Positions 19,351-25,146 of a stretch of DNA of 64,000 nucleotides are shown one piece after another; positions within the stretch are counted from its first letter, which is position 1; each line of letters starts with the position of its first letter. This stretch comes from Selenomonadaceae bacterium. GTDB taxonomy: Bacteria > Bacillota > Negativicutes > Selenomonadales > Selenomonadaceae. The position numbers were made by a program, and so were the translations under genes. The DNA is taken from NCBI GenBank assembly GCA_017476005.1, contig JAFVEM010000048.1, positions 62,001-126,000 of the forward strand. Reading direction: 5' to 3'. The notes beneath the pieces are model-generated. The model was not told the DNA's origin. It ran no database searches and saw only the letters and a program-made list of their open reading frames with translations.

Positions 19351-20277
19351 ATGCTGAAAATGGATGCGATACAAAAGCGAATTTTGCAAGAAGTGGCCGG
19401 ACTGCACGAGATTCCCGAGGGCGCTTATAATTTTCGGGTGAACGGGGAGGGCGCCGGGCGCAACACCACCGCCAATATAGACATTATCTCCAAGGAAAAC
19501 GGCTCCGGCATTGATATTCACATTCGCCCCGGCACCAAAAACGAAAGCGTTCACATTCCCGTGGTCTTGAGCGCCAGCGGCCTAAAGGAAACGGTCTATA
19601 ACGATTTTTATGTGGGGGCGGATGCCGATGTGGTCATTGTGGCCGGATGTGGCATCGATAATTGCGGCGCGGCGGATTCGGAACATGACGGCGTACATCG
19701 GTTTTACCTAGAACCTCGCGCCAAGGTAAAATATGTGGAGAAGCACTACGGCTCCGGCACGGGTACCGGCAAGCGCGTATTAAATCCCGTGACGGAAGTC
19801 ACCTTGGGCGAAAACAGCTCCATGGAGATGGAAATGGCGCAAATAAAAGGAGTTGACTCCACGGAGCGCATCACCACGGCGACACTGGCTGCCGGCGCTA
19901 ATTTGGTGGTGCGCGAAAGGCTGATGACCCACGGCGAGCAAAAGGCCGTCAGCGCCTACAAGGTGACACTCGATGGAGAAAATTCCAGCGCCGACGTGGT
20001 GTCCAGGTCGGTGGCGAGAGACAAGTCGCGCCAAAAATTCGACGCTTTGCTCATCGGCAACGCCGCCTCCCATGGCCATACGGAATGCGATTCCATCATC
20101 ATGGACGAGGGCAAAATTTTGGCCGTACCTTCTCTCGAAGCCAACAATGTGGATGCCATGCTTCTGCACGAAGCCGCCATCGGCAAGATTGCCGGCGAGC
20201 AAATCATAAAGCTCATGACCTTGGGACTTTCGGAAAAGGAAGCGGAAGAACAGATTATAAATGGATTTTTGAAATGA
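19351..20277 (+). CDS. SufB/SufD-family Fe-S cluster scaffold-like protein (short form)
   Basis: A 308-residue protein. VKYVEKHYGSGTGTGKRVLNP, DVVSRSVARDKSRQKFDALL, GHTECDSIIMDEG and LHEAAIGKIAGEQIIKLMTLG (about residues 270-290) match the conserved C-terminal core of SufB/SufD. It lacks the long N-terminal extension of SufB, as in minimal SUF (SMS-type) systems of anaerobes. A cysteine-bearing segment GCGIDNCGAAD lies near residue 95. Its ATPase partner SufC is not next to it; the neighbour is cobI. Function in Fe-S assembly is likely but not certain. Confidence 0.8.
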   Translation: MLKMDAIQKRILQEVAGLHEIPEGAYNFRVNGEGAGRNTTANIDIISKENGSGIDIHIRPGTKNESVHIPVVLSASGLKETVYNDFYVGADADVVIVAGCGIDNCGAADSEHDGVHRFYLEPRAKVKYVEKHYGSGTGTGKRVLNPVTEVTLGENSSMEMEMAQIKGVDSTERITTATLAAGANLVVRERLMTHGEQKAVSAYKVTLDGENSSADVVSRSVARDKSRQKFDALLIGNAASHGHTECDSIIMDEGKILAVPSLEANNVDAMLLHEAAIGKIAGEQIIKLMTLGLSEKEAEEQIINGFLK

Positions 20278-20289
20278 GACTGTGGCTGT

Positions 20290-20316
20290 CCCCCTCTAAG
20301 AGGGGGATTTTTTGTT
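20290..20316 (+). terminator. Terminator after the SufB-like gene
   Basis: CCCCCTCTAAGAGGGGG forms a near-perfect palindrome followed by T6. It is a copy of the C-tract/G-tract terminator-like repeat found several times in the window. Confidence 0.75.
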
Positions 20317-20329
20317 TCTAAAAAATGTC

Positions 20330-20357
20330 TTGCGGGGGGGGGCAGGTGTAGTATAAT
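20330..20357 (+). promoter_or_regulatory. Promoter of terD with poly-G tract in spacer
   Basis: TATAAT (20352-20357) is a consensus -10 element. TTGCGG (20330-20335) is a plausible -35 element 16 nt away, and a run of nine G (20334-20342) falls at its end and within the spacer. Addition or loss of one G would change the spacer length. Confidence 0.55.
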
Positions 20358-20410
20358 CGAAAAAGGCTGTTTGTTATAAATTTTTTAATTTTACATGGAG
20401 GCGTGTTCGT

Positions 20411-20989
20411 ATGGCAGTAAGTTTGCAAAAGGGGCAGAAGGTTGATCTGACCAAGAGCAATCCCGGACTGGCGAAAATTTTGGTGGGGCTTGGTTGGGAC
20501 ACCAACAAGTACGACGGGGGAGCCGACTTCGACCTTGATGCGGCGGCGTTCCTCTTGGGGTCTAACGGCAAGGTGACTTCAGACGGCGACTTCGTGTTCT
20601 ACAACAATTTGAAGCACGCCTCCGGCGCAGTGGAACACATGGGCGATAACCTTACCGGCGATGGCGAGGGTGACGACGAGCAAATCAAGATTGAGCTGGG
20701 CAAAATCCCGGCAAACATCGAAAAGATTGATTTCACCGTGACCATTCACGAAGCCGAGGCGCGGAAGCAGAATTTTGGACAGGTGTCCAACGCCTTCATT
20801 CGCATCGTCGATGACGGCAACAACCAAGAGTTGATTCGCTACGACCTAGGCGAGGATTTCTCTGTGGAGACGGCAGTAGTGGTCGGCGAACTCTATCGCA
20901 ACAACGGCGAGTGGAAATTCAACGCCATCGGCAGCGGTTTCTCCGGCGGCCTCGCGGCTCTGGGGAGGAACTTTGGCGTGAATGTTTGA
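20411..20989 (+). CDS. terD: TerD-family stress protein
   Basis: A 192-residue protein of the length of TerD/TerE. It opens with [20 protein letters not shown], and [21 protein letters not shown] carries the Asp-rich calcium-binding signature. [18 protein letters not shown] and [19 protein letters not shown] are further conserved blocks. TerD proteins are linked to tellurite resistance, phage inhibition and membrane stress. The usual TerC, TerA, TerB neighbours are missing. Instead the gene heads a stretch with lipoproteins and a double-TerD protein. Confidence 0.93.
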
Positions 20990-21088: not shown

Positions 21089-21895
21089 ATGATGTCAACC
21101 CATAAACTCCCTATCGTTTGTATCGTATTTACTATGGTAGCCTTGTTATTGACCGGTTGCGGCGGTAGCAGTAATAGCAATAAGCAGGTAGCCAACAGCA
21201 ATAAGGAGGCGGAGGCTCAACAGAAGAAGTTGGATGCCTGGGATTTGACCAGTTATGCCAATCAATGTAGAGAAACTATTGACGGTAGTAGTGATGCTCA
21301 GGAAGTGAATGCGGCCAAAAAGCTACTGGTCGTGTTCGTGAAACACCATGATGCAGATGACCATCCCACGAATGCTCAGTTATCTAAAGAGGCACAAGCC
21401 GTTTCCGATGAAGAGGCCGAAGCGTTCTACCAGAATGATTTGGCAAAGAATATGGTTTTCTATCCCAATAAGAAAAAGGCGGCCGGAGCTAAACAAGTTG
21501 ATGTTAAAAAGAACAACAACAATAGCAGAAAGCAGTCTGACCAAACAGCAGCATTGAATGCAGAAAAGGCTGTAAGCGCGATAGTTAATGGAAATGTGGA
21601 GATGGGGAGGAAATATATTGAGGTTGATATGAATTTAAATGGTGGGTTGGATACTTTTATAGGTCGTATGCATAGCGCGTTCTATAGAGTGTGTTTAAAG
21701 AAGAAAATTCAAGGTTTGCGTCAAAGCGATGATACAAATGATTTAATAATATCTCATACTACCATAGAGAATATAGATGCCAACCAAAAGAATGTTACTG
21801 TAACGATTGATGGCGATCCGATTCGTGTTAAAATGCTTAATGTTTCAGGTGAATGGAAAATGTCGATAAAAAGCTATATCGAAAATGGCGTATAA
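21089..21895 (+). CDS. Lipoprotein of unknown function
   Basis: A 268-residue protein. The signal ends in the lipobox LLTGC (cysteine about residue 24), followed by a serine/asparagine linker, so it should be anchored to a membrane by lipid. The mature part is charged and helical, rich in K, N, D and Q, with two or three conserved-looking segments. The C-terminal third (VTVTIDGDPIRVKMLNVSGEWKMSI) resembles the beta-rich end of DUF4878-type or NTF2-like lipoproteins. Its AT content is higher than that of neighbouring genes, which may point to transfer. Confidence 0.65.
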   Translation: MMSTHKLPIVCIVFTMVALLLTGCGGSSNSNKQVANSNKEAEAQQKKLDAWDLTSYANQCRETIDGSSDAQEVNAAKKLLVVFVKHHDADDHPTNAQLSKEAQAVSDEEAEAFYQNDLAKNMVFYPNKKKAAGAKQVDVKKNNNNSRKQSDQTAALNAEKAVSAIVNGNVEMGRKYIEVDMNLNGGLDTFIGRMHSAFYRVCLKKKIQGLRQSDDTNDLIISHTTIENIDANQKNVTVTIDGDPIRVKMLNVSGEWKMSIKSYIENGV

Positions 21896-21922
21896 ATAAG
21901 AGGTTCTTCGGCGCAGCTATTT

Positions 21923-21978
21923 GAGGCTCTGACTTGGCGTGAAGGACGGAGCGTCGTCTATACGGCGGCTCTCCGTGT
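21923..21978 (+). repeat. Post-terD repeat, copy 2
   Basis: GAGGCTCTGACTTGGCGT (2 differences from copy 1) is followed by GGAGCGTCG..CGGCGGCTCTCC. It sits between two lipoprotein genes, in the same position relative to the upstream stop as copy 1 has after terD. Confidence 0.5.
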
Positions 21979-22001
21979 TGTCGAAAGGAAGGACTGAGGC
22001 C

Positions 22002-22658
22002 ATGAGACGCTTAGCAGTTTGTACGCTTATCATCTTTCTTGGTTGTTTTCTTGTGGGTTGCAAAGGCAACGTGTCTAAGCTAATCGGCGCGGTAAAGCGC
22101 GAGGTTAAGCAAGAGGCGGCCATGCAAGTCGTAGAAGGAGTTATTGATTCTCAAGTTGGAAATAAATCATCCACGCCGCAGCCTAGCACTAGAAGTTCCG
22201 TGAAATCCAATTTAAGCAAGGCAGGTGCCTTAGCAGCCGTCGGAGGCGCAGTATCGCAGTTGCCGACCAATAGCGATTTGACGCTGGGAAAAGTCAGTAT
22301 CGGTTATAGTCGCGATGATGTCTATTCCCTAATGGGACGGGAAAGTGAAATTAAAGACCCAAATAACAGCGGCCATCTACGTTATCAGTACCCGGAGATG
22401 GAAGTGGTAATAACTGCCGGCAGAGTCACGGGTTTTGTATCAAATACTGGTGATGTGTCCACGCCGCGAGGTATTCGGCAGGGTGATTCTCTGCAGAAAG
22501 TGCTGAGTAATTATGGCGAACCTTATGCCCAGTCGGATTTCGATGATATGACGCTTTACGAATACAAGATGACTTCCCTTGACAGACGAGAGTGTCTCAT
22601 GCGTTTCGCGGTCAAAAACGGCAGAGTCGATTACATCAGCGCCAGAGTTTTGGAATAA
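22002..22658 (+). CDS. Lipoprotein with SmpA/OmlA-like repeats
   Basis: A 218-residue protein starting at ATG 22002 (GGAAGGACTGAGG upstream); an earlier in-frame ATG at 21939 lacks a ribosome binding site and lies in the repeat. The signal peptide ends FLVGC (lipobox). After a Gly/Ala/Val-rich stretch the mature region has two similar units, each with a G-S/Y-x-x-x-V pattern: IGYSRDDVYSLMGRESE and IRQGDSLQKVLSNYGEP. These resemble the start of SmpA/BamE-like domains. It probably acts at the cell envelope. Confidence 0.65.
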   Translation: MRRLAVCTLIIFLGCFLVGCKGNVSKLIGAVKREVKQEAAMQVVEGVIDSQVGNKSSTPQPSTRSSVKSNLSKAGALAAVGGAVSQLPTNSDLTLGKVSIGYSRDDVYSLMGRESEIKDPNNSGHLRYQYPEMEVVITAGRVTGFVSNTGDVSTPRGIRQGDSLQKVLSNYGEPYAQSDFDDMTLYEYKMTSLDRRECLMRFAVKNGRVDYISARVLE

Positions 22659-22682
22659 ATGCGACGGTGAAAGGAGTATGCT

Positions 22683-22796
22683 ATGCAGTATTACATCCCC
22701 GACAGTTCCTTTTATGTACGCTTATACATAATACAGATGGCAAAAGTGTCGGAGCAGATCGGAGGAATTTTCTCCGACACTTTTGTGGACAGGTGA
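22683..22796 (+). CDS. Short ORF (37 aa), possible gene remnant
   Basis: ATG 22683 has an excellent AAAGGAG at the right distance, and 37 codons follow, starting MQYYIPDSSFYVRLYI and ending at 22796. A long inverted repeat lies in its second half. It may be a leader peptide, a truncated gene or a small protein. No family recognised. Confidence 0.35.
   Translation: MQYYIPDSSFYVRLYIIQMAKVSEQIGGIFSDTFVDR
22741..22785. terminator. 14-bp perfect inverted repeat within the short ORF
   Basis: CAAAAGTGTCGGAG (22741-22754) and its exact complement CTCCGACACTTTTG (22772-22785) are separated by 17 nt. The T-run on one side allows a terminator-like role in either direction. It also overlaps the coding part of the 37-codon ORF. 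Confidence 0.6.
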
Positions 22797-22831
22797 TTTT
22801 CTCTGTTGGACTTGAAAGGGGACTTGGTTAT

Positions 22832-23203
22832 ATGTCGATGTACGATTGCCCTCAATGCGGATCGAGCAATACGCAGAAGGTTTCCATTATGATGCAAGAA
22901 AATGTCTCCGTGAAAGATTTGAACATGATGGCCAAACAAGCCATCGAAGAAATGCCGAAAAAGAAGGATGAGCCCTGGAGCGGTGCTTTCTCTTTCTGCT
23001 TGCTGGGGATAGGTCTGCTGTATCTTTTGGGTGATTATTCTTTCGGGAAATGGGGCGGCCTGATTTTTTTAGCACTCGGTGGATTGATGTTATACGCCAG
23101 TTATTCGGCCCATCAATACAATGCTAACGAATACCCCAGACGTATGGCAGAATTTGACCGTAAGTACATATGTAAGCGTTGCGGCACAGTATTCACTGTT
23201 TAA
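22832..23203 (+). CDS. Small membrane protein with split zinc ribbon
   Basis: A 123-residue protein starting at ATG 22832, with GAAAGGGGAC upstream. CPQC (residues 6-9) and CKRC (about 114-117) at the two ends could form one zinc ribbon around a hydrophobic pair of helices (about 50-90). Both termini would be cytoplasmic. It lies among TerD and lipoprotein genes. No specific family recognised. Confidence 0.6.
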   Translation: MSMYDCPQCGSSNTQKVSIMMQENVSVKDLNMMAKQAIEEMPKKKDEPWSGAFSFCLLGIGLLYLLGDYSFGKWGGLIFLALGGLMLYASYSAHQYNANEYPRRMAEFDRKYICKRCGTVFTV

Positions 23204-23248
23204 CGCGCTTCTTGCCGCAGTTATTGTAGCTCGAAGGGAGTGAGCGTT

Positions 23249-23905
23249 GTGAAAATGCTTCGTATTGGCGTGTGTCTGTTGGCAGTGATATTGTTACTGG
23301 CTAATATGGGTTGCGGTGGGGGAGTAGCCAAGGTTACGCCTAAGGTTGCCCCCAAAGTCTTCGGTGCTCTCAAGCAAGAGGCCAGAGATGCACTTGTCCA
23401 GCAAGGTCTAGAATACGCCGCCGGAGCGGTGACAGGCGGCAACTCCGTGGGCAAAAAAGATAACTACAATTCCCCCTCGGGTACCAAGTCTAAAGCGGCG
23501 GCGGTAGTTGGAGGAGCCGCCGCCGTGGCCGGAGCTACCGCCGGAGTCGTGAATGCTCAAAAGGGAGGAAAGACCTTAGAGGCCGGAAATGTACTGATTA
23601 GCTACTATCAGGCTATCGCCGCCGGACGTATGTCTGAGGCGTACAATTCCCTGTCTTGGGAAATGCAAAACCAACTGGGCACTTACGAAAGTTTTTCCCA
23701 AGGCTACACATCCACGGTTTCCAATGATGTCACAGATATACGGGGTATTGCCGAAGGGGATGACTATGTGGTACTATCCTACGAGCTACATTCCGTCGAT
23801 AACATAAACGGGCGGCTGGTGCGGCAAACCTTTTTAGGGGAGGCCACGTTAGCCCTGCTTAAAGGACATTGGCTGATAACCGATTTCAATGTCAGGGTGA
23901 AATGA
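23249..23905 (+). CDS. Lipoprotein of unknown function with DUF4878-like C-terminal region
   Basis: A 218-residue protein. GTG 23249 is chosen because AGGGAG lies 8 nt upstream; GTG 23240 is the other option. The lipobox LANMGC gives lipid anchoring. A Pro/Val-rich and Ala/Gly-rich region (to about residue 95) is followed by VLISYYQAIAAGRMSEAYNSLS. This resembles NTF2-like/DUF4878 domains, which carry a pattern of helix then YNSLS. It ends in a 4-nt overlap with the double-TerD gene, suggesting that the two products work together. Confidence 0.65.
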   Translation: MKMLRIGVCLLAVILLLANMGCGGGVAKVTPKVAPKVFGALKQEARDALVQQGLEYAAGAVTGGNSVGKKDNYNSPSGTKSKAAAVVGGAAAVAGATAGVVNAQKGGKTLEAGNVLISYYQAIAAGRMSEAYNSLSWEMQNQLGTYESFSQGYTSTVSNDVTDIRGIAEGDDYVVLSYELHSVDNINGRLVRQTFLGEATLALLKGHWLITDFNVRVK

Positions 23906-25146
23906 CTGGGAAAGCGAGTGGTTACATGGAAATGCAAAGGGGTATGCGCGACAAGCTGGCGAAATACTTAGCGCCCGAGCGAGCTATGGAGGTGGAATTA
24001 AGCACCGTAGGCTCCGGGACGTATGATTATGCGGCTTTTGGTTTGGATGCGGCGGAAAAACTTTCCGATGACCGCTATATGGTGTTTTACAATCAACCGA
24101 AGTCCCCCGAAGGAGCCTTGACCTATCGCGAAATTTCCGGCGGCGGTGCTTTTTCTCTGCGGCTTCAAGACCTGCCCGGCAAGATAAACAAGGTGGTGTT
24201 TACCGTCAGCCTCGACGGCAACGGCACTATGGGCGAAATAACAAGCCATCGCGTACTTATCAAGCAAGACGGCCAAGAAATTTTGGCGGCGAAGCTGTCC
24301 GGCCAAGATTTTCAAGCGGAAAAAGCGATTATCTCATTGGCCATATATCGCAAGGGCGAATGGCGGTTTCAAATGGTAGCCAGAGGCTTTAATGGAGGCT
24401 TGGGAGATTTATTGCGCTCCTTTGGCGGCGAGGAGGCGGGGGCTGGTTCGCAGCCTGCGCCGCCGCCTGTGCCGCCCGTTTCCACCGTCAAGGCATCTCC
24501 TGTGCCCCCCGTTTCTGCAAAGCCTCAGCCGCAAAAGGCCGAGAAGGTTTCCCTGAAAAAAGGACAAAAAATTTCCCTCACTAAAAACGACAATAATTCA
24601 CCCATCATCGTGGAAAACGGCTGGACAGCCAAAGGCAAGGACTACGATTTGAAAGCCTTGGTGCGTTACCGGGATGGCCGACTGATTTATGTGGGAGCCG
24701 CCAACGATGACGAGGTACTTATCACCCCGGAAGGCGCGATAAAACACGGCGGCGACGTGAAGAACGCCGGCGATATGGAGCGCATCGAGATAAAATGGCA
24801 CAAGGACATAGCCTCGGTGGCGGTAAGTTCCTATTCGGCGTTGGAGAATGGCACCGGTTCCTTTAGAGAATACGGCGTCTTTGTCCGCATCACCAACGGC
24901 AAGCAGATAGTGGAAATCCCGGCCGCCAGCACCAGTGCAACTTATGACAGCTATACTTTGTGTTTTGGCGAGATACTGTTCGGACAAAATGGAGGGCTGG
25001 AGGTATCGGCTTTGGAAAAATACAGCGCGTCTGGTTCGGAAAGACGCATAGGCTACCAAGGGGACACCGTGGTCATGGACATAGGCCCCGTAGGAAAGTT
25101 TAAGGGTAGCATTGTCGGCTCGTTTTTTAAGTCGTTGTTTTCTTGA
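23902..25146 (+). CDS. Double TerD-domain protein with proline-rich linker
   Basis: A 414-residue protein if ATG 23902 (4-nt overlap with the lipoprotein gene) is the start; upstream sequence in frame lies inside the previous gene. Domain 1 (about residues 20-170) is TerD-like, with VFTVSLDGNGTMGEI, AIYRKGEWRFQMVARGFNGGL, though its calcium motif is weaker. A Pro/Ala/Val linker (about 180-215) is followed by domain 2 (about 218-380), with KGQKISLTKNDN and YDLKALVRYRDGR. The layout resembles TerA/TerD fusion proteins of stress-response loci. It probably acts in the cytoplasm. Confidence 0.8.
   Translation: MTGKASGYMEMQRGMRDKLAKYLAPERAMEVELSTVGSGTYDYAAFGLDAAEKLSDDRYMVFYNQPKSPEGALTYREISGGGAFSLRLQDLPGKINKVVFTVSLDGNGTMGEITSHRVLIKQDGQEILAAKLSGQDFQAEKAIISLAIYRKGEWRFQMVARGFNGGLGDLLRSFGGEEAGAGSQPAPPPVPPVSTVKASPVPPVSAKPQPQKAEKVSLKKGQKISLTKNDNNSPIIVENGWTAKGKDYDLKALVRYRDGRLIYVGAANDDEVLITPEGAIKHGGDVKNAGDMERIEIKWHKDIASVAVSSYSALENGTGSFREYGVFVRITNGKQIVEIPAASTSATYDSYTLCFGEILFGQNGGLEVSALEKYSASGSERRIGYQGDTVVMDIGPVGKFKGSIVGSFFKSLFS

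Follow-up and report, generated by a model that had tools for sequence, protein, structure and literature searches.

The G run in the predicted terD promoter is one copy of an element that recurs before many surface genes of one bacterial class from gut and rumen and changes length between related copies

A run of nine Gs precedes terD in the 64-kb window, the whole stretch of 64,000 nucleotides analyzed here, and the locus raises the question of what such a run does in a promoter. The first-pass annotation had placed the run between TTGCGG and TATAAT, counted a 16-nt spacer, and recognized the classic layout of phase-variable promoters. Direct reading bore out the coordinates of the run and both hexamers (Table 1), and the hexamers are 16 bases apart (20336-20351). 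The layout was correctly described, but the description missed that the terD promoter belongs to a conserved class. We put at roughly 60% the probability that the terD promoter, with the G9 run in its spacer, belongs to a Negativicutes promoter class that is conserved and read by a regulator, with slippage being secondary.

Table 1. Features of the terD locus, in window coordinates.
Feature	Position	Strand	Basis or remark
SufBD-like gene upstream of terD	19351-20277		SufBD domain
Intrinsic terminator of the SufBD-like gene	20288..20308	+	9-pair stem, T tail
Whole promoter element	20320..20359	+	match to model R1, 46 bits
A-rich stretch 5' of the TGTCTTG box	20320..20325	+	read directly and from pooled class sites
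TGTCTTG box	20326..20332	+	common to the class; overlaps TTG of the -35
TTGCGG, -35 position	20330..20335	+	read directly; 3/6 vs TTGACA
G9 run	20334..20342	+	starts in the -35 hexamer (two Gs) and continues into the spacer
TATAAT, -10	20352..20357	+	read directly; preceded by TAG, not TG
GGAGG, ribosome-binding site	20397..20401	+	read directly
terD	20411..20989	+	192 aa, PF02342; ATG at 20411

The terminator has a strong, terminator-like stem and separates the transcription units of the SufBD-like gene and terD. Because the G9 run begins inside the -35 hexamer, this hexamer is poor, and the terD site was therefore not listed by a consensus promoter scan of the window. The TG of an extended -10 is absent at this site, and no inverted copy of the box was seen upstream of the promoter on direct reading. 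Sigma-54 promoters have TGGCAC a few bases ahead of TTGC; TTGC is present at terD, but it is preceded by AAAAAATGTC. The product is a plain TerD protein by Pfam (PF02342, E = 2.6e-87). Inspection found no signal peptide in it, and on that basis it is not a surface protein. Downstream of terD (21089-25146), the window contains two lipoprotein-like genes and genes for a zinc-ribbon-like protein, another secreted protein, and a 425-aa protein with two TerD matches. We know of no description of such a TerD neighbourhood.

The run could have arisen by chance inside an ordinary terD promoter. G8 matched twice in the window, both matches overlapping in the terD run, and shuffled sequences averaged 4.93 matches. 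As a mere run, the terD G run is thus not above chance; its recurrence in a constant sequence setting is. The genome (2.7 Mb, 76 contigs) contains 41 G or C runs of at least 8, and 11 of them share the TGTCTTG...-10 setting, AAAAATGTCTTGC-G8/9-CAGACGTGGTATAAT or near it. Two more sites, with the run broken or shorter, were obtained by a looser search (L183, GCGAAGGGAGG; L198, CCGGGGGGG). A sequence-only model, R1, was built from 13 own-genome sites. At E < 1e-6 it recovered all 13 training sites in this genome and added C30:10510 and C43:8524, 15 sites in total, with G8-9 at 11 of the own-genome sites. Its sole match in the window was the terD site, which is one of the 13 training sites. The class consensus is AAATGTCTTGY-G7-9-(A)CA-nnTGTGnTATAAT, in which the leading A is variable, (A)AATGTCTTGY. 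We defined the class by a TGTCTT box, at least seven Gs within 4 bases of it, and a -10 at a spacer of 15-18, all of which are found at terD. Targets in the genome were mixed. MBOAT genes follow four of the 15 sites (Pfam confirmed two, and the other two were assigned by likeness), and other sites precede genes for an FAD oxidoreductase, a WYL regulator, a DnaA-domain protein, a PDDEXK nuclease, and TerD.

Relatives of terD were examined at 80 loci. G or C runs of at least 6 were present within 400 bases upstream at none of the 80, and model R1 gave no match in these loci (483 kb, E up to 1). The element therefore does not travel with the terD gene. The run-free relatives and the window count agree with a chance run, but the 46-bit class-model match (of a site belonging to the training set) and the presence of the same element at many unrelated loci in many genera speak against it. 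We rejected a chance run, now very improbable, on the recurrence and the genome-wide list of G runs. A mobile element was also dropped. When the 13 sites were compared by eye from -15 to +130 relative to the box start, the element was all that they had in common, apart from two paralogue sets that do share more. A strict version of the element had no exact match in viral contigs. Among plasmids, 1,535 records matched the terD query at 60-80% identity, and none covered 80% of the query in one place.

The distribution of the element was analyzed at three levels. In 189 genomes of the family, the pattern TGTCTTGN{9,20}GTGNTATNNT, which demands no G, gave 125 matches in 71 genomes (reversed control, 10). 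At least five consecutive Gs were present in 57 of the 125 matches, which came from 36 genomes and 13 of 30 genera. We think that the remaining 68 matches, 31 of which have a spacer of 17, are ordinary promoters or arose by chance. The converse search, with G7 and an extended -10 and nothing demanded upstream, matched 50 of the 189 genomes (control, 4). It returned 30 loci, 19 of which had TGTCTT at most 4 bases from the run. Class-wide, 64 of 300 Negativicutes genomes matched (control, 2); the gap limits of this search hide spacers above 16, and its counts serve presence only. Matches that were convincing by eye outside Selenomonadaceae came from four families (f15, f25, f7, and f4). In a draw from the phylum, 11 of 398 genomes matched, five of them from the 14 Negativicutes drawn. 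Outside the class, the 6 matches in 384 genomes were at the background level (control, 5).

Seven of the 11 loci without TGTCTT near the run belong to one genus, g13. The loci of this genus (L310-L316, in genomes G113, G114, G115, G120, G132, G134, and G159) have runs of 9-13 Gs close before the -10 in a different layout, with no TGTCTT box and, in some, a TTGAC-like sequence upstream. Their longer runs make them better candidates for classic spacer phase variation.

The geometry of the element was tightly kept. The spacer was 16 in 34 of the 57 family sites and 17 in 14. Variance was 1.71 for the G length and 1.83 for the rest of the spacer, and 0.60 for their sum. The two parts were anticorrelated (r = -0.83 in the family and -0.73 in other families), partly through single-base exchanges at the run edge. 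For other families, 58 of 106 matches in 23 genomes had a run (control, 38 matches), a share that is biased because these genomes had been picked for earlier matches, mostly in the class-wide search with spacers of at most 16. Their spacer was 16 in 44 of the 58, and 41 of the 58 had G7. Pooling all collected loci with at least seven Gs gave 123 sites, with spacer 16 in 82 and 17 in 25. TG preceded the -10 in 116 (7 were without it), and the -10 was exactly TATAAT in 61. Directly 3' of the run, ACA was found in 37 sites and CAG in 16. A was favoured 5' of the box at -3 to -1 (counts of 90, 89, and 82), and TGTC...GACA occurred in 37. Some sites with interrupted runs retained both the box and the spacing.

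The fixed position of the box at -35 and the TG before most of the -10 hexamers would suit an alternative sigma factor that uses TGTCTTG as its -35 and TATAAT as its -10. The -10 argues otherwise, being the housekeeping consensus, exact in half of the pooled sites. Copies of the box elsewhere also do not fit. GCAAGAC or GTCTTGC was found within 130 bases upstream at 21 of 91 sites, which include paralogues and are not independent; base shuffles gave a mean of 1.0 and a maximum of 4. The 6-base core had 25 upstream hits, 15 of which were inverted copies at -37 to -42. At several loci (L275-L277, L299, L347, L369, and others), the inverted box GCAAGAC is found about 40 bases, or about four helical turns, 5' of the TGTCTTGC box. 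Two ompM-like paralogues of this genome (C16:11982-11990, L152; C36:102532-102539, L163) carry TGTCTTC-Gn-ACA in the 5' leader, with G9 and G8, just downstream of a separate -10. Their flanks are 93.4% identical over 244 columns, and their proteins begin like the SLH porin of L218. Since the box can be at -35, inverted upstream, or after the -10, it looks like a protein-binding site, which fits the ompM-like copies better than an alternative sigma factor does. We consider such a factor improbable.

Pfam scanning was applied to 50 of the 83 listed downstream proteins, picked for length and variety rather than at random and including some paralogues; 24 of the 50 were products of envelope or surface genes. 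They included MBOAT O-acyltransferases, an AlgX-like protein, ShlB/FhaC transporters, YadA adhesins, an SLH protein, sugar transferases (one by its N-terminal CoA_binding_3), polysaccharide export, and other glycan genes. As a control, 28 proteins were listed behind TGTCTTG or TGTCTT sites that lack a long run, and 10 of them were scanned; none was above the cut-off for these groups, and one flagellin match was just under it. Two of the ten control proteins, both without a Pfam match, had signal-peptide-like starts, as did several unmatched proteins of the G-run set.

The scanned set also contained four XRE-type HTH proteins and one diguanylate cyclase. Counting short pieces, 8 of the 24 listed other-family sites had an XRE-type HTH gene immediately after the promoter, in five genomes that all belong to family f15. 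The f15 proteins are small and have similar helices containing SQT (L391, L392, L394, L398, L440, L442, L444, L445, and L435). They are candidates for the regulator of the class and may be autoregulated. Against this, the one match to them in the collected DNA of the terD genome was weak (E = 4e-5).

Possible phase variation, the other claim of the first-pass annotation, found support as well as counterevidence. If the promoters were contingency promoters, the run would be kept for slipping, and random changes in the -35/-10 spacing would switch or grade the surface genes and terD. Homologous promoters were grouped by the similarity of both flanks with a strict gap rule; a looser rule in the all-pairs flank comparison linked unrelated sites and was not used. 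Spacer length differed within 7 of the 9 groups having a run of at least 8, vs none of the 6 with G7 (one of these interrupted, one G5/G7) and 1 of the 7 with shorter runs; the G-poor group L348/L352 looks coding. The contrast between 7/9 and 1/13 had a one-sided Fisher value of 0.0015 (0.0008 to 0.0025 at other thresholds), with the groups of at least eight Gs slightly more diverged in their flanks (identity 0.905, vs 0.938 and 0.947 in the other groups). The strictest flank threshold kept it (6/7 vs 1/11). The clearest pair, G201/G204, had spacers of 16 and 18, with 99 aligned upstream bases identical except for one gap and 97% identity downstream. Two copies in G348 had G9 and G10 and flanks 97-99% identical; since both are near contig ends, they may represent a single locus in two versions. 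In the own-genome pair C61/C62, which counts among the 7 differing groups, the spacers were 15 and 17 and both runs were G8; what changed lies next to the run. A homologous copy of the terD promoter was not found. Such differences between homologues speak for slippage on an evolutionary time scale and do not bear out switching inside a population.

Two more G runs in the genome bear on the same question. Two autotransporter-like genes, so called by eye from a signal peptide, repeats, and an F-ending C-terminus, are broken by a frame change at a G11 (C47:30299-30309) and a G10 (C2:48425-48434) (L463, L465, L466, and L467). In both, a short signal-peptide-like frame stops just past the run, and another frame is open for the remainder of the protein, which is about 2,000 residues long, contains repeats, and has a barrel-like end. 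The parts of these two proteins that were scanned had no Pfam match above the cut-off. They are candidate translational phase-variable loci with the usual look of contingency loci, an appearance that an assembly error within the run would also give. These frame splits make G runs as switches more credible in this organism. A glycosyltransferase gene behind a G9 (C53) was dropped as a frameshift locus, since a start is possible after the run.

Contingency promoters are thus favoured by the group contrast, by pairs such as G201/G204 and the G348 copies, by the surface genes that make up about half of the scanned targets, by the two genes with frame breaks at G10 and G11, and by a layout equal to that reported for porA, fetA, and opc in the accessible part of PMC2791445. 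The narrow spacing, 16 or 17 at most pooled sites and kept by compensation, is instead what a fixed promoter element would be expected to have. G7 was dominant in the other families examined and invariant within its groups, and slippage would need no TGTCTT box conserved across several families. Interrupted-run sites still keep the box and the spacing, C61/C62 changed beside its G8 rather than in it, and the groups with the longer runs are somewhat less identical in their flanks. For terD itself, the non-surface product and the run-free upstream regions of its relatives also count against phase variation. We favour a regulated sigma-70-type promoter over its main rival, slippage as the purpose of the run, which we hold to be possible but doubtful; both can be true.

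Judged from sequence, a G-run element is repeated before many surface genes of this class of gut and rumen bacteria, its length changing between related copies, and the run is probably first of all a conserved part of the promoter class that is read by a protein. In the regulated-promoter reading, RNA polymerase with the housekeeping sigma factor would use TATAAT, mostly with an extended -10. Because the -35 is poor, firing of the promoter would be decided by a regulator that recognizes the TGTCTT box and probably also the G run or the A-like shape of that run. The run would be kept because it is part of the recognized element, and terD in this genome would be placed under a control common to envelope and adhesion genes. 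Spacing stays at 16-17, with changes in G-run length offset by the flanking bases. A run grown to at least 8, as at terD, may slip and shift the spacing by 1-2 bases. This could give, as a by-product, heritable tuning and perhaps phase variation, which lineages could exploit.

A bolder reading, which we advance tentatively, is a class-wide Negativicutes surface regulon in which one element would do two jobs, as the site of a shared regulator and as a slippage switch where the run exceeds 7 Gs. The small XRE-type HTH proteins, which would themselves be transcribed from such promoters, are the candidate regulator. If so, deterministic and random control would act through the same bases, and each target could be detuned individually.

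To our knowledge, little is known about the control of adhesins, porins, and exopolysaccharide in diderm Firmicutes. One recognizable element lists candidate members of a surface regulon in many genomes and names sites at which run length can be scored in existing reads. The step from G7, with no differing groups, to longer runs, with most groups differing, offers a natural experiment on when a homopolymer may pass from binding element to switch.

Searches of open-licence papers, by words and not by sequence, turned up no description of the element. In the accessible portions of two Veillonella parvula adhesin papers (PMC11633186 and PMC7549365), the word promoter occurs, and phase variation, homopolymer, and the other repeat words searched for do not. 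Among TerD-domain proteins (PF02342), the protein itself is ordinary, and its promoter is unlike those of the 80 relatives. CsoR/RcnR type 1 operators, as given in the available part of PMC3902906, consist of one G/C tract, 3-8 long, between AT-rich flanks that form an inverted repeat, e.g., TACT-G6-N-AGTA. The class resembles them in having a G run at a promoter with short inverted flanks (the TGTC...GACA sites). In contrast to them, its flanks are TGTCTTGY and (A)CA rather than TAC/GTA, and its targets are envelope genes rather than metal efflux; the terD run itself is flanked by TGTCTTGC and CAGGTG, which is not such an operator. In nadA of Neisseria meningitidis, the repeat lies between NadR operators, upstream of the core promoter (PMC2791445, accessible part). 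There, as here, repeat length would alter the spacing of protein-binding sites, whereas here the run is in the spacer.

The closest likeness is to porA, fetA, and opc of Neisseria, where, according to the available part of PMC2791445 and reference titles in PMC5084427, a homopolymer lies between the -35 and the -10. Both have a G or C homopolymer in the spacer of a sigma-70-type promoter, a position also occupied at terD. As far as these partial sources go, both also concern mainly surface genes and vary in length between related copies, here the class sites with at least eight Gs. Unlike what they describe, the class has a TGTCTT box by the run that is common to tens of unrelated genes in several families. 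Its run length is offset to keep the spacing. The terD product, by inspection, is not surface-exposed, whereas many other members of the class are surface genes.
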